Shown piece after piece: positions 50,978 to 63,805 of a stretch of 64,000 nucleotides of DNA (position 1 is the first letter of the stretch; each line of letters opens with the position of its first letter). The stretch is from the NCBI GenBank assembly GCA_937951485.1, contig CALEDJ010000016.1, positions 62,001 to 126,000 of the forward strand, read 5' to 3'. The notes under the pieces were generated by a model that worked only from the letters and a program-made list of their open reading frames with translations, had not been told where the DNA came from and did not search any database. Origin of the DNA: an uncultured bacterium. Lineage in GTDB: Bacteria > Hydrogenedentota > Hydrogenedentia > Hydrogenedentales > CAILVY01. Position numbers and translations under genes: made by a program.

Positions 50978-52333
50978 TCAAGCCATGGATCCGGAGGGAT
51001 TTGGCGCTTTATGGGCAAGCATGCCTTTATTTTCCAATGGGTTTGCTTGCGATTCGATATGAAACGTCAGTCGCACCAACAGGATCACAAAAAAGGTCAG
51101 CATGGTGCGCTGAATGGCCACGGATTCAAGGAGTCCGTTCACGGCGCAGAAAAGCAGTATCGCGCCGAAAAAAGCATAGGCTTGATTGCCGGTAAGCCGT
51201 AACCGGATTATCGTGCGGTGAATGGCGAGCAGCAGGATAAGCAGGTACGCCACCATGGCGATGGGGCCGGACTCCAACGCAATGTCAAAATAGGCGTTGT
51301 GCGCGTGCGAGATGGGCCAGCCCTGTTCCTCGATAATTTCTGTGGATCGTTCTTCATTCCAGAACGCGCCGTAACCGAACCCCAACACGGGACGTTCCAA
51401 ATAAAATTCCCAACACTGCCGCCACAGGGCGGTGCGGCCCGTGAGGGTGCGGAACTCGCCCCGGTCGGTGCGGCCCATCTGCAGGCGTTCGCCCACGGCG
51501 GGCAGAATCATGTCGCCCAAGATCAGCACGAGCATGGCCGCCGCCGCCAGGAAAGAGGTCACAGCGACCTTCTTGCCATAGGGCTGCATCAGGCCCCATT
51601 GAAACACAAGCACAAAGACGCTGCTGGCCAGCGCTGTGCGCGAGCGCGTGAGCACGATGAAGACAAATGCCAGCGCAGCCAGAAAGAGCCAGCGCCGGCG
51701 GTTCTCCGAAGCGCCGCGCCACAACGACAATGCCGCGAAAAACATCAACGCGCAATTCACCGCCTGAATATTCGGATGCACGGTGCCGGTGAAGCGATAG
51801 CCGGGAGAGAAGGGGCGAAAATAACCGGTGGCTATTTCCAATGCCAGACCCACCACCAGATACACCGCCGGGATATATACTGCCATACGCAGGATCGTAT
51901 TCAGAGGGAGATGCCCCCCGATCCCTACCGCCCCCACGCAGATCAACGCGAACATCACGTAGCGGCGGAAACTCAAGGCGGGATCATCCGACCAGGCGAT
52001 GCTCAGTCCCGACCACAGCAGGAAGAAAATCATCAACGCGCCGAGCATGTCCAGGCGACCTTCACCGCTGCGCCGTTTTTGAATGATAAGGAAAAAACCG
52101 ATGGCGCCGAGCAACAGTCCACCCGCCTGCCGCCACGCGCGGGGCTGATACATGTGTTCTATATTGCCGAATTCCTCCAGGCTCTCGGCGGTCATCAGCA
52201 GATTGAAGAGTTCGGGGGATTTGAGGTCATGTTCGATGACAAAAAAGGCACCCAACATTAACAGGAACAGGACCCAGTGCGTGCGCCCCTGAGAGTCCTC
52301 TTCGCCCCGAGGGCTGGAATCCATCATCTGCAT
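50978..52333 (-). CDS. O-antigen ligase/polymerase-like membrane protein (Wzy type)
   Basis: A 451-residue protein with about eleven hydrophobic helices and the large periplasmic loop typical of the Wzy/WaaL superfamily. Loop motifs are FRTLTGRTALWRQCWEFY and GFGYGAFW followed by SHAHNAYFDIALESG, the conserved His-Asn signature. In a Wzx/Wzy locus it most likely polymerises repeat units on the periplasmic face. M1, M3 or M4 could be the start. The 185-base spacer upstream shows only an inverted pair CGTCGCCG/CGGCGACG and no gene. Confidence 0.88.
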   Translation of the reverse strand: MQMMDSSPRGEEDSQGRTHWVLFLLMLGAFFVIEHDLKSPELFNLLMTAESLEEFGNIEHMYQPRAWRQAGGLLLGAIGFFLIIQKRRSGEGRLDMLGALMIFFLLWSGLSIAWSDDPALSFRRYVMFALICVGAVGIGGHLPLNTILRMAVYIPAVYLVVGLALEIATGYFRPFSPGYRFTGTVHPNIQAVNCALMFFAALSLWRGASENRRRWLFLAALAFVFIVLTRSRTALASSVFVLVFQWGLMQPYGKKVAVTSFLAAAAMLVLILGDMILPAVGERLQMGRTDRGEFRTLTGRTALWRQCWEFYLERPVLGFGYGAFWNEERSTEIIEEQGWPISHAHNAYFDIALESGPIAMVAYLLILLLAIHRTIIRLRLTGNQAYAFFGAILLFCAVNGLLESVAIQRTMLTFFVILLVRLTFHIESQANPLENKGMLAHKAPNPSGSMA

Positions 52334-52518: not shown

Positions 52519-53835
52519 CTATAGTTTACCATGTTGGGCCTGCCAAATGCCGAGTTGCCTGCCAAAATAGGCGCGCGTGAAGACACAGGCGGCGATGTTC
52601 CCCGCGAGCAGGCCGAATGCCACGCCCATCGGGCCATAAGCCCACACCAGCCACACGCCCGCCGTAACCATCACGCCAAGGGAAAGCAAGAGGCTTTTGA
52701 AGGCGATGTCGGGGCGTTCCAGGGCGTTGAGTCCGAAATTCGCGGGTACGGTCAGCGCCCAAGCCACCTGCACCACCCCCAGCACCATCACGACAGCGCC
52801 ATGCCCGGCATATTTGTGCCCGTAGAACAGCGTCAACACCCATTCCCCCGCGAAAAACATGAGGACCGCAAAGCCGCCAATCGCGGCCAGGAAAAAGAAG
52901 TCCGCGAGCCGCACGACACGCCGCATCGCCTGGGGGCCGTGCTCGGTCAAGGCATGCACCGTCTTCGGCCCCAGATAATTGCCCAGGCCGATGATCAGCG
53001 GATTCACCAGAAAGATCACGCCGGCACATGCGCCGTAAATCCCGTTGGCCTCCGCCCCATGAAAGGCCAGCAGGAGCCAGGGATATATCTGGTTACTGGC
53101 GACAAAGGCCACGTTGTATGCGAAAATCCACTTGCCGTAGCCCCAGTTCTTGCGAAAATCCGCCACCGCGTCTGACCAGCGCGGCGCAAACATGCGGCGC
53201 GATGCCGCCAGCCACAGCAGGCCCGCCGCCCCCGCACACAGTCCAATCACACCGTAGGCATGCCGCGCCGACAGGCTTCCGGCGTGGGCCATGAACAACA
53301 GCCCCGTCACTTGCAGCACAGACACTGTCGTGTCGATCAAAAAAACGGTCCCGGTGCGCAGTCCGGCAAAGCAGACCTGCCGCGCATATTCCTTCAGCAG
53401 AATCAGCGCGATGACCGCGGCCAGGGTCAAAAGCACCGAACCAAGCCCCGCCGGTCCGCCCCACATGCGCATCCCGGTCGCGACGATGAGAAGCGCCACC
53501 ACAACGCCGCAGGCATAGAGGATTTGATGAATCAGGGTGCTGCCCGTATAGCGGGCATGCGCTTCACCATGCATGCGCGGGCTGAAAACGGTGTACGCCG
53601 CAGAAATCAGCGACAATTGGGTGTTGACGGCGAGAATGATGATACTGAAACCGAGCAGGTACAGCCCGAACTCTTCCTTGCTGCATATGCGCCCGAGGAT
53701 AATGCTCGTGGCGAAATTCGCCGCGCTGACAATCCCCTGGTCCGCAATGGTCAGTGCCGCTTTTCCGCGCGCGACCGCGCCAATGGCGGCCAGGCCCGTT
53801 TTGAGAGTCCATGCAGGTCGCGAACCGGCCTGCAT
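52519..53835 (-). CDS. Wzx-type polysaccharide flippase
   Basis: A 438-residue membrane protein with twelve or so hydrophobic helices in the MATE/MOP flippase pattern: ALTIADQGIVSAANFATSII at the N-terminus, a GLYLLGFSI helix, and paired helices through the C-terminal GMVAFGLLAGN-like end (GPMGVAFGLLAGNIAA). It would turn the lipid-linked repeat unit to the outer face. It lies two bases after the acyltransferase gene. Confidence 0.85.
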   Translation of the reverse strand: MQAGSRPAWTLKTGLAAIGAVARGKAALTIADQGIVSAANFATSIILGRICSKEEFGLYLLGFSIIILAVNTQLSLISAAYTVFSPRMHGEAHARYTGSTLIHQILYACGVVVALLIVATGMRMWGGPAGLGSVLLTLAAVIALILLKEYARQVCFAGLRTGTVFLIDTTVSVLQVTGLLFMAHAGSLSARHAYGVIGLCAGAAGLLWLAASRRMFAPRWSDAVADFRKNWGYGKWIFAYNVAFVASNQIYPWLLLAFHGAEANGIYGACAGVIFLVNPLIIGLGNYLGPKTVHALTEHGPQAMRRVVRLADFFFLAAIGGFAVLMFFAGEWVLTLFYGHKYAGHGAVVMVLGVVQVAWALTVPANFGLNALERPDIAFKSLLLSLGVMVTAGVWLVWAYGPMGVAFGLLAGNIAACVFTRAYFGRQLGIWQAQHGKL

Positions 53836-54489: not shown

Positions 54490-55314
54490 TTAATGCGCGC
54501 CTCTGCGCGAGATCACCGCCGGAACCGTCATGAACAACAACTTGAGGTCCGTCCAGAATGATAGGGCACGGATGTATTGCATGTCGAGCCGCACCCAGCG
54601 GTCGAAGCAACTTTCATCGCGACTGGTGATCTGCCAGATGCAGGTGATGCCCGGTTTCACATCGAGCCGCGCGTGGTGCCACAGGTCGCACTGTTTGTTT
54701 TCGTCCACAGGGAGAGGACGCGGACCCACGAGACTCATGTCGCCCTTGAGCACATTGAAGAACTGGGGCAGTTCATCGAGGCTGGTCTTGCGCAGTATCC
54801 GGCCAATCGGGGTAATACGCGGGTCGTTTTTCATTTTGAATGCGGGACCCTGGCGCTCGTTGAATCGCAGCAACTCCGCCTTTTTCGCCTCCGCATTCAC
54901 GACCATCGTGCGGAATTTGTACACCGTGAACGGTTTACCGCCCAACCCGCCGCGCTGCTGGCGAAACAACACCGGCCCCGGTGAAGTCAACTTGATGGCA
55001 ATCGCGATGGCGATCATCACCGGTCCGAACAACATGATGCCGAGCAGCGCCCCGACGATATCCAGCAGGCGCTTCCATCGCGGGAATGGCCGTACAAAGA
55101 GCGCGTTCATCGGGAGACCCTGCGCTGCGCTGTCCAACTCCGGACGGGTGGCGCGGTCGTCCATGTCGCGAATTCGAATGACAATCGGGGAGGTGACGGT
55201 TGCGGCCCTGTCAATCGTTGGGTCGCCCACATCAAAACGCATGTGCGTGTCCAGATGCAAAACAATGCCCTGCAGGAAAGGGTCGCTGGGTATGCTGTGT
55301 AATTTTGGAGACAT
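54490..55314 (-). CDS. Initiating sugar-1-phosphate transferase of the EPS locus
   Basis: A 274-residue enzyme of the bacterial sugar transferase family without the usual multi-helix N-terminus: only one membrane segment (RWKRLLDIVGALLGIMLFGP) precedes the catalytic domain. Motifs are SPGPVLFRQQRGG, FTVYKFRTM, LRKTSLDELPQFFNVLKGDMS, LVGPRPLP and DVKPGITCIWQITSRDE. It loads the first sugar phosphate on undecaprenyl phosphate. The first ~70 residues are polar and unassigned. It directly follows the GGDEF-like gene by 15 bases. Confidence 0.93.
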   Translation of the reverse strand: MSPKLHSIPSDPFLQGIVLHLDTHMRFDVGDPTIDRAATVTSPIVIRIRDMDDRATRPELDSAAQGLPMNALFVRPFPRWKRLLDIVGALLGIMLFGPVMIAIAIAIKLTSPGPVLFRQQRGGLGGKPFTVYKFRTMVVNAEAKKAELLRFNERQGPAFKMKNDPRITPIGRILRKTSLDELPQFFNVLKGDMSLVGPRPLPVDENKQCDLWHHARLDVKPGITCIWQITSRDESCFDRWVRLDMQYIRALSFWTDLKLLFMTVPAVISRRGAH

Positions 55315-55329: not shown

Positions 55330-55830
55330 TTATTCCGCCGCCGAGGAAAATCGGCCGGTTGCCTTGTGCAGGGTTTTACCGGCGCTCTCGGTCGGGTAAA
55401 CATATATTTCGTGCGTCAGATGGATTCCGACCGGCGCATCCGCCTCCAGTGGTGGCATGCGCTTCTGAAACAGTCGGAGAATGTCATTCCAGATTCTCTC
55501 CACGTGGCCGGGGCTGGAATAGGGCAGAATCACCGCCACGCGATCGCGGAACCATCCTCTGGTGTCCGTGATTCGTGTGCGATCATGCAACACAGAAGCC
55601 AGCACCCACACCGCCTGTTGATACGCGGTGCTGCCGCGCGGAAGGGAAATATCAATCGTCATCATGCAGAACGTCCCGCCGCCACGGTCGCTGCGGGCGC
55701 GTTCCTTGAACAATTCCTCCTCGAAGGAACTCTCCGAAAGCAATCCCTCGATGGATGCACCCCGTCGCGCGCCGTTGCCGCGAATCGTTTCCCAGATGCG
55801 GGATACAAATGTACCATTGTTCCGTTTCAA
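55330..55830 (-). CDS. Degenerate GGDEF-like protein paired with the sugar transferase
   Basis: A 166-residue soluble protein starting at a TTG (55830) with AGAGG about nine bases upstream. It follows the diguanylate cyclase pattern in outline: an entry helix FEEELFKERARSDRGG, a strand TFCMMTIDIS, and RGWFRDRVAVILPYSS (residues 91-106) where active enzymes have GGDEF followed by a hydrophobic strand. The catalytic Gly-Gly-Asp/Glu-Glu-Phe loop is absent, so it cannot make cyclic di-GMP. It may be a regulatory or structural partner of the sugar transferase encoded next. Assignment is from pattern, not a database search. Confidence 0.6.
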   Translation of the reverse strand: MKRNNGTFVSRIWETIRGNGARRGASIEGLLSESSFEEELFKERARSDRGGGTFCMMTIDISLPRGSTAYQQAVWVLASVLHDRTRITDTRGWFRDRVAVILPYSSPGHVERIWNDILRLFQKRMPPLEADAPVGIHLTHEIYVYPTESAGKTLHKATGRFSSAAE

Positions 55831-55879: not shown

Positions 55880-56121
55880 CTTATCGGACCGCCCGCCGGT
55901 GCGGCTGAAAAACTGTCCAATGCGCCCTGAGATAAGCGGCGTATGCTTCACTCCTTGCCCACTCTAGCAACATCTTCCTTCCGCCCCCTATTCCCACGCA
56001 CCGTAAAAAACCCGCACCCGATACCCCGCTTTTTTCATCCCGGCCGTTGACGGGATAGTGGAATCCACCTCTTATACCGCCCACGGGGGGTGCAGCCAAG
56101 ATCATCTCAACCGGTAGTCGT

Positions 56122-56841
56122 TTACAGCCGCCGATAGATGAAACGCGGGATGTAATCGCGGCGTTTGTTGAAGACCACGCCCAGCACATTGCCGCGTTGA
56201 CCGACAATCTGATTGATCCAGCGTTTGATGGCCTGCCATCGGGTGCGGCCCGCCTCCACCACCACAATCACGCCATCCGCAAACGGCGAAAGCAATACCG
56301 CATCCGAGGACGCTTCAAAGGACGGAGCGTCAATAAGAATCAGATCAAAACGTTCCCGAAGGGCCTCGAAGACGGCGGACAAATGCGGCGAGGCCAGCAC
56401 CGACGGCAGGGAAATGTTGTTCGATGCCATCTGGCTCACTGTCAGACGGGCATCGCCGGCGGAATGGAACAGCGATTCCGACAATTCCCCCGTCTCCGCC
56501 ATTTCCTCCCAGCCGCGCACTGCCCCCCCGACCGCCATCTGGTTCACATACGCTGACGGCCCGGCCGACACCAGCAGAACCCGTTTGTTCAATCGGGTGG
56601 CGGCCATGCGCGCGAATTCGCGCACCAGCCGCGAACTGTCGTTGCCCGACTGCGCGCCTGCGAATTCCACAATACGGCAACGCTTATCCTCCAGAACGGC
56701 ATCTATGCGTTGGCACAGCGACACCAGCGTGTCCGCAAGCCCCTTGGGCAGTTGCGGCCCCGATGGCGCACTTACCCGGCGCGGGGCTGCTTCCGCGCGT
56801 TCCCTGCTCGCATTGTCGAGGGCTTCATAAATCTTGGTCAT
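56122..56841 (-). CDS. CpsD/BY-kinase-like protein without Walker A lysine
   Basis: A 239-residue P-loop-fold protein of the CpsD/CapB type that normally phosphorylates tyrosines and controls polysaccharide chain length. The start MTKIYEALDNA matches the family entry. However, the Walker A site reads SGNDSS at residues 65-70, with Ser69 where the catalytic Lys belongs, and the Walker A' region reads VLLVSAGP instead of a DADLR-type motif. Walker B is kept (LILIDAPSF). No C-terminal tyrosine cluster is present. It is probably a non-catalytic partner of the chain-length protein. It overlaps the AAA-LysM gene by four bases. Confidence 0.8.
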   Translation of the reverse strand: MTKIYEALDNASRERAEAAPRRVSAPSGPQLPKGLADTLVSLCQRIDAVLEDKRCRIVEFAGAQSGNDSSRLVREFARMAATRLNKRVLLVSAGPSAYVNQMAVGGAVRGWEEMAETGELSESLFHSAGDARLTVSQMASNNISLPSVLASPHLSAVFEALRERFDLILIDAPSFEASSDAVLLSPFADGVIVVVEAGRTRWQAIKRWINQIVGQRGNVLGVVFNKRRDYIPRFIYRRL

Positions 56842-58442
56842 GGGCGTTCCCTGTCCTCCGGCTGGATGCCGGGCATTGCAGCGGCGTTTTTCACGTCGCT
56901 ATCGGACTTTCTTTCCACGGGAAACACCAGCGTGTCCCCCGCCCTGATATAATCCGGATTTGATATATGCGGATTGAGCCGAAGCACCGACGAAAGCAGT
57001 TCCGGCCCGCTGTGTCCATAGAAATCCCGGACCAGTTTTGACAGCGTGTCTCCTTTTTCAATCAGCCGCGCAATGGTCTCGGCAGGCGTTTCCAGTACGG
57101 TGACCGCTGCCGCCGCCAAATCCGCTTCCAATGTTGTCATGCGTACGCGCACCGCCCCATCCATCGCGGATACGCCGGTTTCCTCCGGCGCCTCCTCGCC
57201 CAAGGCGGCAGGCCCTGCGGGAGACACAATTTCGGCATCTTCTTCCCGGGCCGGTAAAGCAGGCGATTCCGGCGGCCGGAGCGATTCCGGGAGTCGCACC
57301 AAAGAATCCGGCGCGGGGCGCGCAGTGGATTCGGTCGCTGCCGGGGGTGTTTCCTTTGGTGCGGGTTCCAGGGTCTGCATCATAAAATCGAGCGTAATCG
57401 CCCGATGGTCGCGACTGCCCACCGGAGGCTGCGGCTCCGGGGCAGCCGGAAGCCCCCCGGCGGCAGGCGCGGCGCGTGTTTCCAGATCATCGGCCGGCGC
57501 TTCCGCATGAGCGATATGGCGGTCTGTGGGTGAGCGCTTCGGCGAAGCGCCGATCCAGCCGCCAATGGCCAGCGCAGTCGCGACAATGACGGCAAGCCCC
57601 GCGGCGGCCATTGCCCATCGCGGCACCCGCGATGCGCCGCCTTCCAGGTCGGTGATGACCTCCCGCACGGTCCGCCGTGTCACGGAAGTCGCGTGATTGC
57701 CGAACCCCGCAATCAAGGCATTGTCCGCGACAATGTTGATAATACGCGGATTGCCCCTGGCGTGGCGCACGATGGCGCGGATTGCGCCCGGGGTGAAGAT
57801 ATCCTCCCGGGCGGCCCCCGCCTGGGTGAGCCGGTGCTGGATGTATTCGCGGCTTTCCGCGGGGCTGAGGGCTTTCACCCGCGCCCGCACGGCAAGCCGC
57901 TGCCGCAATTGCCGCAACTGGTGCAATTCCAGTTTGCGTTCCAGTTCGGGCTGCCCTACAAGCACAATCTGGATGAGTTTGTCCGTCGTGGTCTCCAGAT
58001 TGGAGAGCATCCGGAGTTTTTCCAGGGTTTCCACGGGCATGTTCTGCGCTTCGTCAATGATCAGCGCCACGTTCTCGTCGCGCTTGTAGGCTTCGATCAG
58101 CCGCCAGTGAATGCGTTCGATCATGGCGGGTTCGGAGGCGTCCCCCGGTTCTTCATCCATAGCGCGCAGGAGCATGGCGAGGAGTTGCTCGAAGGTAAGG
58201 TCGGGATTGAAGATATAAATGGGGCGCACGGGGCTGTTTTCCACGCGCTTGAGATAGGCGCGCAGCACGGTGGTCTTGCCCACGCCCACTTCGCCTGTGA
58301 GCGCGACAAACCCCTTCCTCTTTTCCACCCCATACACCACGGTGGCGAACGCCTCGCGGTGGCTCGGGCTGAGATACAGAAACTCCGGGTCGGGCGTGAT
58401 ATGGAACGGCTCGCGCTCCAACCCGTAATGGCTCAGGTACAT
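56838..58442 (-). CDS. AAA ATPase (ExeA/XrtA-locus type) fused to LysM
   Basis: A 534-residue protein. Residues ~1-270 form an AAA ATPase of the ExeA/PEP-CTERM-locus ATPase type: YGLEREPFHITPDPEFLYLS, Walker A GEVGVGKTT (50-58), Walker B ALIIDEAQNM and RGNPRIINIVADNAL. A transmembrane helix follows (~279-300), then a ~150-residue Pro/Ala/Glu-rich linker and a C-terminal LysM-like domain (IEKGDTLSKLVRDFYG to IRAGDTLVFP). The ATPase would be cytoplasmic and LysM, which binds peptidoglycan-like glycans, periplasmic. No exosortase gene is in this window. It overlaps both neighbours. Confidence 0.88.
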   Translation of the reverse strand: MYLSHYGLEREPFHITPDPEFLYLSPSHREAFATVVYGVEKRKGFVALTGEVGVGKTTVLRAYLKRVENSPVRPIYIFNPDLTFEQLLAMLLRAMDEEPGDASEPAMIERIHWRLIEAYKRDENVALIIDEAQNMPVETLEKLRMLSNLETTTDKLIQIVLVGQPELERKLELHQLRQLRQRLAVRARVKALSPAESREYIQHRLTQAGAAREDIFTPGAIRAIVRHARGNPRIINIVADNALIAGFGNHATSVTRRTVREVITDLEGGASRVPRWAMAAAGLAVIVATALAIGGWIGASPKRSPTDRHIAHAEAPADDLETRAAPAAGGLPAAPEPQPPVGSRDHRAITLDFMMQTLEPAPKETPPAATESTARPAPDSLVRLPESLRPPESPALPAREEDAEIVSPAGPAALGEEAPEETGVSAMDGAVRVRMTTLEADLAAAAVTVLETPAETIARLIEKGDTLSKLVRDFYGHSGPELLSSVLRLNPHISNPDYIRAGDTLVFPVERKSDSDVKNAAAMPGIQPEDRERP

Positions 58443-60010
58443 GCCCGGAATTCCTTCTCTGATATAGACGCCAGTACCGGCACGCCGAGCCGCTTTTCCA
58501 CGGCCTCGGTCGTGTTCAGCGAATCATCGAAATACTCACGCACGAAAGCGAGGCAGATACCGCCGAAGAGTCCCAGCAACAGGCCCAGGCTGATGATGCG
58601 GATCTTGCGCGGTTTCACCGGCAGCAGCGGTTTCGATGCCGGCTGCACAACGCTGACGTTCGACACCTTGTCCATGGCCATCGCGGCCGTGATCCGCGCC
58701 TGCTCCAGATTCTCCCGATATTGCCGGTATTCCGCTTCAGCCAGTTCCTTGTTGCGTGTCAACCGTTCAAATTCCTTTTCCTGGGCGCTGAGAACGGCCA
58801 GCGTTTCCTTGTGCCGCGCCACTTCTTCCTTCAGTTTCTCGACGCGCGCCAGCATGCCTTCGAGATTGGCCCGTTCATTGTGATAGGTGTGCATAAGCCC
58901 TTCGCGGGTGGTGTCCAGTCCGGTGGTGATTTCCGTGCGCACCTCCTCCTCTTTCGCCAAGGATTCCTCCAGTTTCCTGATTTGTTCGCGGAGTTCCATG
59001 AGGGGGCGATGCGTGTCGGCATAGCGGGCCGCCAGGTCGGTTTCCTGCAGGCGCAGTTCACCGAGGCGCTCCTTCATCCAGTCGGCGACATAGTTGGGCA
59101 TGCCGACGGTGCGGCTCAATTCGTGCCGGTCCGGGCGCTTTTTCACCTCCTCCGCCAGCGCCGCCACCTGCGCTTTCAGCCCTTCCGCCGCCGCTGTGGA
59201 ATCGCTCAGTTCGCCCTCCAGCACGCTGATTTGCTGGAGCAGGGTTTCCTTCTGCGCCTGGATGGCCGCGATCCCGTGTTGATTGCGGAAATCGGCGAGT
59301 TCTTCTTCGCGGTGGATCAGTTCCTCGCGGGTGCGCTGCACCTGCCGCTCCAGAAATTCCGGCGAGACCTGGGGCGCGAAGACCTCCACATGGCGCTCCA
59401 GATAGAACTGCACCAGTTTGTCCAGCACCACCTGGGCCAGGGGCGCATGCTTGTGGAAATAACGCGCCTGGATGATGTTGGTCTGCTTCTCGTGTTCGAC
59501 CTCGAGGTCTTTCATCAGCCGGCGCACCGCCTCTTCATACGGCGTCAGTTTCTCCATGAGATGCAATGTCACCAGCAGGGCCTTGGCCGCGTCCTGCGCT
59601 TCGCGCATCAGCCGCCGCGCCAGGGTTGGCGCGGGCATTTCCGGGATGGGAAGCGGTTCCCGGCGCTCGCCGGGCCGGTCCAGAATCCAGCCCTCGCCCA
59701 CAAAGTCCACCACTTTCTCGGCAAGATAATGGCTTTGCAGAATGGCTATTTCCGACTTCACCTCGCTGGTGCGGTCCTGGGTTACGTTGAGCCAGGTGTC
59801 GCGGATGGAAGGGTCGCCCGGCAGGTTTTCACGGCCCAGGCGGATGAGCAGTTGCGCGTCGGACTGGTAGGCCACCGGCAGCATGAAGGTCACCGCCGTC
59901 ACCACGATCGCCGTGAGCAGGAAGAACACCACGATCTTCCCCTTGTGGCGAAAAACGACATATAGCACGTCCCGCACTGAGTTCAGCAGCATTCCGCTCT
60001 CCGCTTGCAT
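58433..60010 (-). CDS. Wzz/Wzc-type chain-length determinant
   Basis: A 525-residue inner-membrane protein with two transmembrane helices (residues ~26-46 and ~470-490) flanking a long periplasmic coiled-coil region (~200-440), the polysaccharide co-polymerase layout. The N-terminal Wzz segment (YQSDAQLLIRLGREN) and the Pro-rich motif before the second helix (ASKPLLPVKPRKIRII) are typical. No kinase domain is fused; the separate CpsD-like protein may take that place. The start may be the ATG at 60010 or, with a better-placed GGAG, the ATG at 59992. Confidence 0.9.
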   Translation of the reverse strand: MQAESGMLLNSVRDVLYVVFRHKGKIVVFFLLTAIVVTAVTFMLPVAYQSDAQLLIRLGRENLPGDPSIRDTWLNVTQDRTSEVKSEIAILQSHYLAEKVVDFVGEGWILDRPGERREPLPIPEMPAPTLARRLMREAQDAAKALLVTLHLMEKLTPYEEAVRRLMKDLEVEHEKQTNIIQARYFHKHAPLAQVVLDKLVQFYLERHVEVFAPQVSPEFLERQVQRTREELIHREEELADFRNQHGIAAIQAQKETLLQQISVLEGELSDSTAAAEGLKAQVAALAEEVKKRPDRHELSRTVGMPNYVADWMKERLGELRLQETDLAARYADTHRPLMELREQIRKLEESLAKEEEVRTEITTGLDTTREGLMHTYHNERANLEGMLARVEKLKEEVARHKETLAVLSAQEKEFERLTRNKELAEAEYRQYRENLEQARITAAMAMDKVSNVSVVQPASKPLLPVKPRKIRIISLGLLLGLFGGICLAFVREYFDDSLNTTEAVEKRLGVPVLASISEKEFRACT

Positions 60011-60084: not shown

Positions 60085-60846
60085 TTACAGCCCCTGTCCC
60101 GCGCCGAAGCCCGTTCCCCCGGGGCCGATATCCTTGAAGAACGTCATGTTCAGCGTCGTGTTCCTGGGGATAATGCGGTTGATGTATTGCTCCACCCACT
60201 GGTCCACCCGGTCAATGTTGGTGCGCGGCACATAGACGATGTCGCGCGGCGCGAGGTAGAACGGCTCGCTTTCCGGCTTGTTCAGCGCCCGTTTCAAATT
60301 CACCCGCTGCGCGTATTGGCGACCTTCCGCCTGCCGGATTACGATGACCTGCTTCATCTTCGCGCTTTCTTTGACGAAACCGCCCGCCTGCAGCACCGCG
60401 TCCATCGCCGTCATCCGTCCCTGAATCCGCAGCACGCCCGGCGTGCGTACCTCGCCGCCCACATAAACCCGCTGGCTGTCGTAGGATGTCACGACCACGT
60501 TGATTTCAGGGTCCTTGAGTTTATCGGCGTACGCCGTCACCAGCCGCTGGCGCAATTCGTCCGGCGTCAGTTCCTGCGCCATGACGTCGCCCACGAGTTT
60601 CAAAGAGATGTTGCCGTCGGGGCGAATGGCCTGTTGCTCATTCAGTTCCGGCCAATAGACAAAATCCAACCGCAAGACATCCCCCGGCTGCAACCGCACC
60701 ACCGGTTCCGCCGGCTCGATGAAGGGTTCCGCCGGCGGCGCGCTGGTCGCACACCCTGCCATCACCACAGGCAACAGCAAGACCGCGATCACCGTTCCCC
60801 AGTCATGGTCCCGTTTCCCATCCGCTTCAGTCTTTGATTGCCTCAT
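60085..60846 (-). CDS. Wza-type polysaccharide export lipoprotein
   Basis: A 253-residue outer-membrane lipoprotein forming the export pore. The signal peptide ends in the lipobox MAGC. The export domain VRLQPGDVLRLDFVYWPELN to IRPDGNISLKLVGDV is followed by one SLBB-like domain (RVYVGGEVRTPGVLRIQGRM, AVLQAGGFVKES). The start at 60846 begins the lipoprotein signal; the longer in-frame reading adds a Cys/Arg-rich leader and is rejected. It is the first gene of the leftward polysaccharide locus. Confidence 0.93.
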   Translation of the reverse strand: MRQSKTEADGKRDHDWGTVIAVLLLPVVMAGCATSAPPAEPFIEPAEPVVRLQPGDVLRLDFVYWPELNEQQAIRPDGNISLKLVGDVMAQELTPDELRQRLVTAYADKLKDPEINVVVTSYDSQRVYVGGEVRTPGVLRIQGRMTAMDAVLQAGGFVKESAKMKQVIVIRQAEGRQYAQRVNLKRALNKPESEPFYLAPRDIVYVPRTNIDRVDQWVEQYINRIIPRNTTLNMTFFKDIGPGGTGFGAGQGL

Positions 60847-61041
60847 CCGTTTCCATTCCCGACGTTGTCTGAAACCCCGGACTGACCACTGCACAAACAG
60901 GAACCGCGCCAAGAAATCGCTTTTCCTTCCGTCCCGCCGGCAGCACCGCAAAAACGTTGCAAAGAACCTTTTTACAAGGCAAAAACAGCCTCCCGGCACC
61001 TTTCATTCCCTGCGCTGCGGTATTCCGTCATTCTTTGTCTT

Positions 61042-61070: not shown

Positions 61071-61297
61071 AGCGGCCAAACCGATGCCCTCCACCGACCC
61101 GATCGCCGACCTGGACGAATCCGGATGCTCCGCTCCCCCCGCGCGTCTTGCTCTATCTCCTTCTAACCCAATGCACATCTTGCGGCAGGACTGCATAACA
61201 AGCACACTTACTTTACCATATTACCGCCAACAACGTCAACAATTGGGGTTTCAGACGCTTGCGAAACAGGCTCTTTCTTCGCGCAGGAGCGCGAAAC

Positions 61298-61401
61298 ATC
61301 CTGGAACTTCGCCGGGGCCGGCGCCCGGAACACCCCCCTTCAGGACTGTGCGCAATTGGCGGTATCCTGGAACTTCGCCGGGGCCGGCGCCCGGAACACC
61401 C
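61298..61401. repeat. Pair of identical 38-bp direct repeats
   Basis: Copies at 61298-61335 and 61364-61401 are identical, 66 bases apart, each containing the self-complementary core GCCGGGGCCGGC. No open frame with coding character spans them. Confidence 0.75.
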
Positions 61402-61471
61402 ATTGTGGCGAATGTCTGGCAGCGAATGTCTTTGATCCGCCGGAAAATACTGCTGTTTCAAGCGCCCGCCG

Positions 61472-61792
61472 TTAATTGTAGGGGTCATTTTCTCTTGCCA
61501 ATTCGGTCAGCAACACGATCCACGTGCTGCAGATGGGCCACTCCTCCTGGTACCGGATGAATTTTGCATGCCCATCCATATAAAGGACATTGCCGCCGCC
61601 TGGAATGTGATTGAAGGAGGGCATCCCGGCGACAGGGTCTGTGGGCCACACGGAGACATCCCACATGACGGGAATTTCGCTCTGTGCGCGGGCGGACGCC
61701 GCCGGGTTGTTGATGTCGGTGATGAAGAAGCGCTCGATGCCCTCCCGCAGCCGATAAACGACCTCGCCATCCAGCAACTTGAAGTGGTGGAT
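61472..61792 (-). pseudogene. 3' fragment of a DUF1559-like prepilin gene
   Basis: The frame has no ATG and is closed upstream by a TGA at 61793-61795. What remains (about 106 codons) is the C-terminal part of the pilin-like family common in planctomycete-type bacteria: YRLREGIERFFITDINNPAA, then FNHIPGGGNVLYMDGHAKF, the H-x9-DG signature. The N-terminal methylation site and helix are missing. A TTG could start 101 residues, but no ribosome site precedes it, so I call a truncated relic. Confidence 0.7.
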
Positions 61793-61908
61793 TCAAACTG
61801 GATTTATTTCCGCGCCGGGGGGTTGTGCTATGCTCAAGAGGCAAGGACAACTATTTCGTCTTTGACGGTAGAGACTGGAAGATGCCAAGCACAGGAGGTA
61901 GATGCGCC

Positions 61909-62523
61909 ATGCGAAACCATTTGGGAGTATTGATGCTGTTTGTGGCCGCCGCATTGATTTTGGACGGCTGTGCCAGGTCCTCGGGACCACGCGGCGGTGT
62001 CCCGCCGCAGCGCGTGGATCCAAGCGTGCAGAGCCGGGGAGAAGGGACCGGCATCGGGTCGCAGGATCTGGTGGAAGTGACGGACAAGATGGCGCGCAGC
62101 ATTCTGAGCACGCCGAAGATCGCGCACGCCAGCACGCCGCCGGTGATCGCCCTGTTGCCAGTCATCAATGACACGCGCTTCCCCATCAACCGCGAGTTGT
62201 TCAACCGCCGCATCAAGGCGTTGCTGAACACGCAATGTGATGGCAGGGTGTATTTTGTGGCGCGGGACCGGATCGAGTCGGTGGAACGGGAGCGCGAACT
62301 GAAGCGGGAGGGATTGGTGACGAGCGGCGGCGAGGGGGATCTGGCCGGCGCGGACTTCTTCCTCACCGGGGAGTTGACGGGGCTGAGCCAGGCCGCCTCG
62401 ACGGGCCGGTCCGACTATGTGCTCTACACCTTCCGGTTGATTGACGCGGAAACCTCGATCGAGGTATGGGAAAACTTCGCGGAAATCAAGAAGGAAGGCC
62501 TCGAAGACGCCGCGTACCGGTGA
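61909..62523 (+). CDS. LpoB-like penicillin-binding-protein activator lipoprotein
   Basis: A 204-residue lipoprotein with signal VLMLFVAAALILDGC (lipobox somewhat unusual: LDGC). The mature domain matches the LpoB/TolB-like fold: SQDLVEVTDKMARSIL, VIALLPVINDTRFPINRELF, RIKALLNTQCDGRVYFVARD and ADFFLTGELTGLSQ. LpoB reaches from the outer membrane to activate PBP1b in peptidoglycan synthesis. The ATG at 61909 has AGGAGG upstream. It heads a three-gene lipoprotein cluster. Confidence 0.87.
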   Translation: MRNHLGVLMLFVAAALILDGCARSSGPRGGVPPQRVDPSVQSRGEGTGIGSQDLVEVTDKMARSILSTPKIAHASTPPVIALLPVINDTRFPINRELFNRRIKALLNTQCDGRVYFVARDRIESVERERELKREGLVTSGGEGDLAGADFFLTGELTGLSQAASTGRSDYVLYTFRLIDAETSIEVWENFAEIKKEGLEDAAYR

Positions 62524-62557
62524 TCCTCACGAAAACATCTGTTGAAGGGAAAACGTT

Positions 62558-63805
62558 GTGCGCTCGCGGATGATAGTGCGTGTGGTTGGCTCGGCGGCGC
62601 TCGCCGCGCTGCTTGCGGCGGTGGGGGCGTCTTGCGCCGGCACTGCGCGCGAAGAACGCATGCAGCAGCGCCAGGCGGCGCTGCGCGCGGAGGTCGCGGA
62701 CTATCTGCCGCCGGAGGATTTGTCGCCGGATGATCCCCTCTACCCGTACTATGCCGACCTGACCGCCGGCGGCGCGCGAAACGCCGTGCTCAACGGTTAC
62801 GCCATCGCGGCGCGGGCCATTGATAAGGGACGATACGAAGAGGCTGAGCGCGTGCTTGACGCAATGCTCCTCGAACTGGAGGGGAGCAGCGCGGGCGACA
62901 AGGCGGCGCGGCGCGCGCGGTCCAGGTTTCATAAGGAAGAAGCGAAGCGCTTTCGCGGCGAGCCGTATGAGCAGGCGATGATTTTCCTGCTGCGCGGCCT
63001 GCTGTACATGCGCGAAGGCGACTACGAGAACGCGCGCGCGGCCTTCCGCAGCGGCGCGCTGGTGGACAGATCTTCGCTGGATGCGCCGCCCGAGGAGCAA
63101 TATCACGACGACCTCGCGGAGATGGATTACCTGGAGGGACTGTGCAACCTGTTGCTCGGCGATTACCGCGCCGAGGAATGCCTGGAGCGCGCCCGGAAGA
63201 ACGCGCGCCACGCCGAAGCCGCGCCGGACCCGCCCGAAGGCTTCAATACGGTGGCGGTCTTCTTCTCCGGAAAGGGACCCACGAAATACCAGGCCGGACA
63301 ATATGGCGAGATACTGCGATTCTCGCCGGGCGATGGCGCGGGCGGCGCGGTGGAACTTACCGTCAATGGGCAGGCGATGGCCAAAGCACCGGGACCATTG
63401 GACAATATGACCTTTCAGGCCACCACGCGCGGGGGCCGCGAGATTGACGGGATTCTGCGGGGCAAGGCGATTTTCAAGACGGGCACAGGGGTGGCAGGAG
63501 TGGCGGCGGTCGCCACGGGAACAACCCTGGTCGCAACACAATCCCATAACGACGCCGCGCTGGGCGCGGGTATTGGATTGATCGTCGCCGGGCTTGTGGC
63601 CACGGGCATTTCCGCGGCGACAAAACCCGATGCCGACATCCGCGCCATCCGGCCCATCCCGGACGATATCTATGTCTTCCCGATACACCTTGAACCGGGA
63701 GAAAGCACGCTGCAGTTTGATGATCGCGGACGTTCAAATACCGTGGAGCGTCGTGTCGAACATCCGGGCGACGGGTTGAAAGTCGTGATTGTCTGGAACC
63801 AATGA
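62558..63805 (+). CDS. COG3014-like lipoprotein with helical repeats
   Basis: A 415-residue protein starting at GTG (62558; an ATG at 62570 is the alternative). The signal peptide ends in a lipobox-like GASC. Residues ~65-225 form helical TPR-like repeats (YAIAARAIDKGRYEEAERVL, QAMIFLLRGLLYMREGDYENA), followed by a beta-rich region and a hydrophobic Gly/Ala/Val segment (GVAGVAAVATGTTLVA, ALGAGIGLIVAGLVATGIS). This layout fits the uncharacterised COG3014 family, often found beside LpoB genes. Its function is unknown; a cell-envelope role is inferred from context. Confidence 0.75.
   Translation: MRSRMIVRVVGSAALAALLAAVGASCAGTAREERMQQRQAALRAEVADYLPPEDLSPDDPLYPYYADLTAGGARNAVLNGYAIAARAIDKGRYEEAERVLDAMLLELEGSSAGDKAARRARSRFHKEEAKRFRGEPYEQAMIFLLRGLLYMREGDYENARAAFRSGALVDRSSLDAPPEEQYHDDLAEMDYLEGLCNLLLGDYRAEECLERARKNARHAEAAPDPPEGFNTVAVFFSGKGPTKYQAGQYGEILRFSPGDGAGGAVELTVNGQAMAKAPGPLDNMTFQATTRGGREIDGILRGKAIFKTGTGVAGVAAVATGTTLVATQSHNDAALGAGIGLIVAGLVATGISAATKPDADIRAIRPIPDDIYVFPIHLEPGESTLQFDDRGRSNTVERRVEHPGDGLKVVIVWNQ

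Follow-up and report, generated by a model that had tools for sequence, protein, structure and literature searches.

A LysM-tailed ExeA-type ATPase in a conserved operon with a kinase-like pseudokinase at a putative exopolysaccharide export locus of Hydrogenedentota

The analysed window is a stretch of 64,000 nucleotides on one contig (C16) of an uncultured bacterium of the Hydrogenedentota. Towards its end lie the genes of a putative Wzx/Wzy-type exopolysaccharide (EPS) exporter:

50978-52333, reverse strand: putative Wzy-like polymerase, assigned from its position and membrane-protein character, with no NCBIfam match
52519-53835, reverse strand: Wzx-like flippase, a weak match to the MOP flippases, with similarly placed homologues in Hydrogenedentota loci
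54490-55314, reverse strand: polyprenyl-phosphate sugar transferase (Bac_transf; TIGR03025 over its cut-off)
55330-55830, reverse strand: degenerate GGDEF-like protein, in some relatives joined N-terminally to the sugar transferase
56122-56841, reverse strand: stand-alone protein of the BY-kinase fold that has lost the Walker A motif (pseudokinase); it shares its first 4 nt with the end of the ATPase gene
56838-58442, reverse strand: LysM-ATPase fusion of 534 aa (AAA ATPase, transmembrane helix, linker and LysM)
57639-58442, reverse strand: predicted cytoplasmic AAA domain of the ExeA/GspA type, residues ~1-268, from AAA_22 and TIGR03015 matches
57549-57620, reverse strand: transmembrane helix of the LysM-ATPase, residues ~275-298, from hydropathy and the AF2 helix
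56913-57077, reverse strand: LysM domain, residues ~456-510, from the Pfam scan, the tail profile and AF2
58433-60010, reverse strand: Wzz/PCP-2 co-polymerase with GNVR and without a kinase domain; it overlaps the ATPase start by 10 nt
60085-60999, reverse strand: Wza-type outer-membrane polysaccharide export protein (Poly_export, SLBB)

The gene order is wza, wzz and the LysM-ATPase, with the pseudokinase downstream. The Wzz protein passed the Pfam cut-offs for Wzz and GNVR only, and was thus assigned to the PCP-2 co-polymerases without a kinase domain. The original prediction had singled out the ATPase fusion; its picture of the locus was incomplete, as the conserved wza-wzz-ATPase-pseudokinase module had been overlooked. 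No ExeB/GspB or secretin gene was found among the window ORFs scanned with Pfam and NCBIfam, which represent a part of the ORFs of the window. The ORF at 55881-56267 (reverse strand) is probably spurious, with homology matches to the window's own locus only.

Several smaller features were also observed around these genes. A profile of 11 relatives of the GGDEF-like protein matches diguanylate cyclases (5euh, 9.2e-9), and the position of the GGDEF signature reads GWF. The same domain stands at the N-terminus of a protein of ~400 aa that matches sugar transferases in L039 and in three loci of the Geobacteraceae type (L041, L051 and L058); it may be a regulatory domain of the sugar transferase. 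Beyond wza, the ORF at 61213-61488 (reverse strand) contains a repeated CSGRRPRRSSR unit, which suggests that a direct repeat in the DNA separates the EPS locus from the genes that follow. A short ORF (61472-61777, reverse strand) ends like the C-terminus of the type IV pilin-like proteins of DUF1559, and is perhaps a gene remnant. The forward strand at 61825-63805 encodes an LpoB-like protein (PF13036, 1.9e-17) and, downstream of it, a protein with TPR motifs, possibly a separate envelope pair.

The proposed fusion of an ATPase through a membrane helix and a Pro/Ala/Glu-rich linker to a LysM-like domain proved to be real, and lies in a single ORF at exactly 56838-58442. The AAA_22 domain was matched at residues 41-171 (3.1e-28, Pfam scan), and both the Walker A (GEVGVGKTT) and the Walker B (IIDEAQ) motifs are intact; the residues G50, G53, G55, K56, T57, I129, D130 and E131 are invariant in all 34 aligned relatives. 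A fold search with the AF2 model retrieved AAA proteins, for example ORC/Cdc6, MuB, RuvB and TnsC. Hydropathy and the AF2 model agree on one transmembrane helix (275-298), which is followed by a mostly disordered region (~301-452, pLDDT<50); the linker (residues 299-452) is composed of 15% Pro, 20% Ala and 11% Glu. The LysM tail would be periplasmic, because a single helix follows the cytoplasmic ATPase. By the Pfam and AF2 analyses, the protein has the ExeA/GspA layout of an AAA domain, a single transmembrane helix and a wall-binding domain.

The LysM model PF01476 (residues 461-508) narrowly missed its cut-off of 20.9 bits in the whole protein (19.2 bits), and scored 25.5 bits when the tail was scanned alone. 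When 34 tails of the family were scanned in the same way (E<=0.01), 12 matched LysM and 16 matched Phage_tail_X; the domain is therefore divergent. The profile of the 34 tails, searched against solved structures, matched the LysM proteins Ecp6 (1.9e-10), SafA (1.3e-7) and Kbp (4.4e-7), and the AF2 model shows the strand-helix-helix-strand arrangement of a LysM-type fold at residues 456-508, with pLDDT 93-96 for the block. The LysM assignment of the original prediction is supported by the tail profile and by the structure prediction.

Other wall-binding tails were found in the same ATPase family. PG_binding_1 is present in L107, L114, L082 and L026 and in a paralogue of the window genome (contig C7), an OmpA domain (3.3e-25) at the C-terminus of an ExeA-type ATPase in L207 (1508-3010), and LysM plus SPOR in the ExeA-type ATPase of L206 (2626-4338). 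Judged from these sequences, the tail is exchangeable within the ExeA-type ATPase family, which fits a function in wall anchoring. That the cytoplasmic ATPase carries a module for wall binding in the periplasm is well supported, and anchoring of the export machine is the natural reading of such a tail. LysM domains bind GlcNAc-containing glycans, and the best structural match of the tail profile, Ecp6, is a fungal effector that binds chitin. The ligand of the tail might accordingly be the exported polysaccharide or some other glycan instead of peptidoglycan, with the tail serving as a polymer sensor; this is improbable, since the common theme of the PG_binding_1, OmpA and LysM plus SPOR domains found in the same place is peptidoglycan.

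Homologues of the ATPase were reduced to 108 distinct ORFs, counted by hmmsearch (blastp missed L010), and genomes present in two collections as near-identical copies were merged before the counts. The survey was seeded with the window protein and used the best 80 loci in one search, and the sample is tilted toward near relatives. L010 is absent from the alignments (A1 and A2), from the tree and from the AF2 inputs. The LysM tail is present in 35 of the 108 homologues; the carriers include Hydrogenedentota, Geobacteraceae, Syntrophobacteraceae, Nitrospirales and one Tectomicrobia genome. The fusion is not rare, and a sequencing error or a chance join of two genes was ruled out because the same tail recurs in so many distinct homologues. 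The AAA domains of 107 homologues were placed in a quick tree, whose only branch support is SH-aLRT and in which many forks are open; it separated 51 ATPases without LysM from the rest with full support. These 51 include the XrtA-type enzymes and the other two paralogues of the window genome. The other group holds all the LysM carriers together with some relatives without LysM (the Desulfacinum type, L013-L017, L064, L070, L079 and others); support is low for many branches inside this group. It is possible that LysM was gained once and later lost in some lineages.

The neighbours of the LysM-ATPases are conserved. A wzz gene directly upstream and a kinase-like gene directly downstream were found for 30 of the 35 LysM-ATPases, compared with 8 of the 73 homologues without LysM. 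The arrangement is absent from five LysM-ATPases, namely L012 (the same genome region as L045), L057, L063, L065 and L072. Three of these (L012, L063 and L072) are on short contigs, and L063 has wza and wzz downstream of the LysM-ATPase on its cut contig. L057 and L065 have kilobases of flanking sequence on both sides with no EPS-module neighbours; they are real exceptions, and the view that LysM-ATPases occur in EPS modules only was ruled out by them. The module is also kept in a sub-group of Hydrogenedentota (L013-L017) with an ATPase that has no LysM, and wall anchoring by LysM is therefore not essential everywhere.

The best NCBIfam model for the LysM-ATPase is TIGR03015, the ATPase of the XrtA/PEP-CTERM systems, which was also matched by all 34 family members. 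The original prediction had framed the protein in terms of PEP-CTERM/exosortase loci, and the enzyme might then be the XrtA-system ATPase, as a part of an exosortase-linked EPS machinery. Like the window ATPase, the XrtA-type enzymes are found in wza-wzz-kinase loci; however, the XrtA-type loci seen have an intact kinase gene upstream of or apart from the ATPase, and their ATPase has no LysM. The score of the window ATPase (252.6 bits, residues 1-267) is also under the cut-off of 324.5, and that of the pseudokinase with the XrtA kinase model TIGR03018 is 38.5 bits (cut-off 230.65); Wzz and Wza likewise remain under the curated cut-offs of their XrtA-locus models. The window ATPase further belongs to a separate group in the tree.

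The original prediction saw no exosortase in the locus, which is correct: PF09721 matched only on contigs C14 and C20 of the genome. The match on C14 is strong (200 bits) and adjoins a DUF3485 protein and a sugar transferase, the second on C20 is weak, and one PEP-CTERM protein is encoded on C38. An exosortase in the same genome would suit an XrtA-system ATPase, as would the one found ~4 kb upstream of the LysM-ATPase in L043 by a low-sensitivity search, and the exosortase gene epsH that, according to the excerpt consulted of PMC10599522, is included in the EPS cluster of G. sulfurreducens. The exosortase survey covered 24 genomes that have the module, a LysM-ATPase or both, L043 lying outside this set; two of them (G065 and G108) have no module and two (G006 and G029) have the module without LysM. 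An exosortase over the cut-off was found in 16 of the 24 genomes, and in none of the 24 on the contig of the module or LysM-ATPase. Many of the assemblies are fragmented, and separate contigs are therefore weak evidence; the full absence from the other 8 of the 24 genomes surveyed, including the single-scaffold Geobacter sp. AOG1, is stronger. An exosortase system was thus rejected as the identity of the window locus on the sub-cut-off scores, the contig split, the genomes without exosortase and the tree, and the XrtA role of the ATPase is very unlikely.

The AF2 model of the pseudokinase (mean pLDDT 82.8) gave Wzc K540M, CapAB, Etk and VpsO as the best PDB matches. Its predicted fold is that of the Wzc/CapAB BY-kinases; however, it has neither the Walker A lysine nor a Tyr-rich tail. 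The partner family instead ends in a conserved NKRRxYIPxxIYRxL motif, and the C-terminus of the window protein (KRRDYIPRFIYRRL) contains two Tyr, both in this motif. The Walker A lysine is absent from all 38 kinase-like proteins adjacent to the ATPase, where the position is taken by Thr, Val, Ser, Ala, Gly or Cys; whereas it is kept in all six kinase homologues of XrtA-type loci (L103, L108 and L110-L113). Most partners of the Desulfobacterota type have an otherwise intact Walker A (GEGTST or GEGVST) and retain Walker B and part of A'; in the Hydrogenedentota partners, including that of the window, the whole Walker A loop is degraded. Intact BY-kinases elsewhere retain the lysine, and the window genome also encodes an intact Wzc-type protein on contig C49 in which it is present (GDGKST).

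A second sample of 148 genomes from the phylum of Geobacter was searched with the pseudokinase profile (E<=1e-40). The 12 matches comprise 8 stand-alone proteins and 4 fused to Wzz, and none has the lysine. In seven of the stand-alone cases the gene immediately follows that of a LysM-ATPase, and in the eighth a LysM-ATPase is encoded within the same cluster; two of the eight (G100 and G177, the latter being L068) overlap with the first set. The Wzz-fused kinase domains without Walker A (L174-L177 and L180, with one more than in the second sample) have a C-terminal motif of the same kind as the stand-alone pseudokinases. Only one of these five has a LysM-ATPase in the fetched surroundings, and an obligatory ATPase wherever the kinase is dead was thereby ruled out. 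The association is strong from the side of the ATPase only: LysM-ATPases usually have a pseudokinase partner, but not every pseudokinase has a LysM-ATPase.

The window proteins resemble, in their described features, EcpK/EpsV and HfsB/HfsA, in which a kinase-less PCP-2 has a stand-alone partner of the BY-kinase fold without the Walker A lysine. EcpK is a pseudokinase that binds a kinase-less PCP-2, as reported in the accessible part of PMC12004946; whereas EcpK has lost all three Walker motifs, Walker B and part of A' remain in the partners of the Desulfobacterota type. No AAA ATPase partner is named in the part of that source consulted. From this and from the four fused pseudokinases without a nearby ATPase, it follows that an exporter with a pseudokinase does not necessarily need the ATPase. 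The window exporter can be assigned, on sequence and structural models, to the 'BY pseudokinase' class of Wzx/Wzy exporters, with a putative peptidoglycan-anchored AAA ATPase in addition. Since the kinase has lost its ATP-binding lysine, this ATPase is a good candidate for supplying the energy that the exporter is missing.

The best known counterpart of the LysM-ATPase is ExeA/GspA, the ATPase for assembly of the type II secretion system in Aeromonas, which also has a cytoplasmic AAA ATPase, one transmembrane helix and a periplasmic wall-binding domain (the part of PMC4098917 consulted). In that account, the ATPase domain and peptidoglycan binding of ExeA are both needed for secretin assembly (PMC4098917). 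The window protein differs in having LysM where ExeA has PG_binding_1 and in being encoded in an EPS operon, where neither ExeB/GspB nor a secretin gene was recognised next to it; the window genome has its separate PG_binding_1 paralogue on C7. The LysM-ATPase thus appears to be a variant of a known layout, the ExeA architecture with the wall-binding domain swapped. It is possible, though not the favoured reading, that the protein is a plain assembly factor of the ExeA kind, which helps Wza or another outer-membrane part across the peptidoglycan a single time and takes no part in polymer cycling; the pairing with the pseudokinase would then be an incidental co-inheritance in the operon. The swapped ExeA architecture, the work of ExeA in secretin assembly (same partial source) and the four of five Wzz-fused pseudokinases without a nearby ATPase are consistent with such a factor. 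However, the loss of the lysine from every ATPase-adjacent partner in several phyla, against its retention in every XrtA-type kinase, is more than loose linkage suggests, although one inherited ancestral loss would fit as well.

Taken together, the ExeA precedent, the exchangeable tails and the EcpK precedent indicate that the LysM-ATPase is probably the wall-anchored, ATP-hydrolysing part of a Wzx/Wzy-type exporter whose tyrosine kinase became a pseudokinase, with a role in ExeA-like translocon assembly and perhaps in ring cycling. In the proposed mechanism, the LysM domain would grip the peptidoglycan in the periplasm, and the AAA domain would act in the cytoplasm at the foot of the Wzz/PCP-2 ring, which is the expected docking site of the pseudokinase. 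By analogy with ExeA, the protein may oligomerise on the wall, and ATP would drive the assembly or positioning of the Wza-Wzz translocon across the peptidoglycan layer. ATP might also cycle the PCP ring, which is the job of kinase phosphorylation in the Wzc systems. We infer the wall binding, the contact with Wzz or the pseudokinase and the use of ATP for assembly or cycling. The role is best read, by analogy, as ExeA-like assembly in its conservative version and ring cycling in its bold version. The boldest form, in which the wall-anchored ATPase replaces the phosphorylation cycle of the kinase and, by levering against the cell wall, makes the co-polymerase ring assemble and come apart, is a tentative suggestion and rather doubtful.

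The interest of the locus is in the conserved operon with a pseudokinase more than in the fusion itself; no description of the pairing was found in a literature search of open-licence papers. In the part of PMC12004946 consulted, the EcpK authors leave open how the PCP ring cycles without phosphorylation. They ask how a pseudokinase supports a co-polymerase without phosphorylation cycles, and the module, which occurs in culturable Geobacteraceae among others, provides a concrete candidate for the ATP-driven step that is missing, and one open to test. It also suggests a modular rule for the ExeA-type ATPases, in which one motor with exchangeable wall-binding tails serves different envelope-spanning exporters. 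If the ATPase does replace the kinase cycle, there would be a second way of powering polysaccharide export in the pseudokinase-type Wzx/Wzy exporters.
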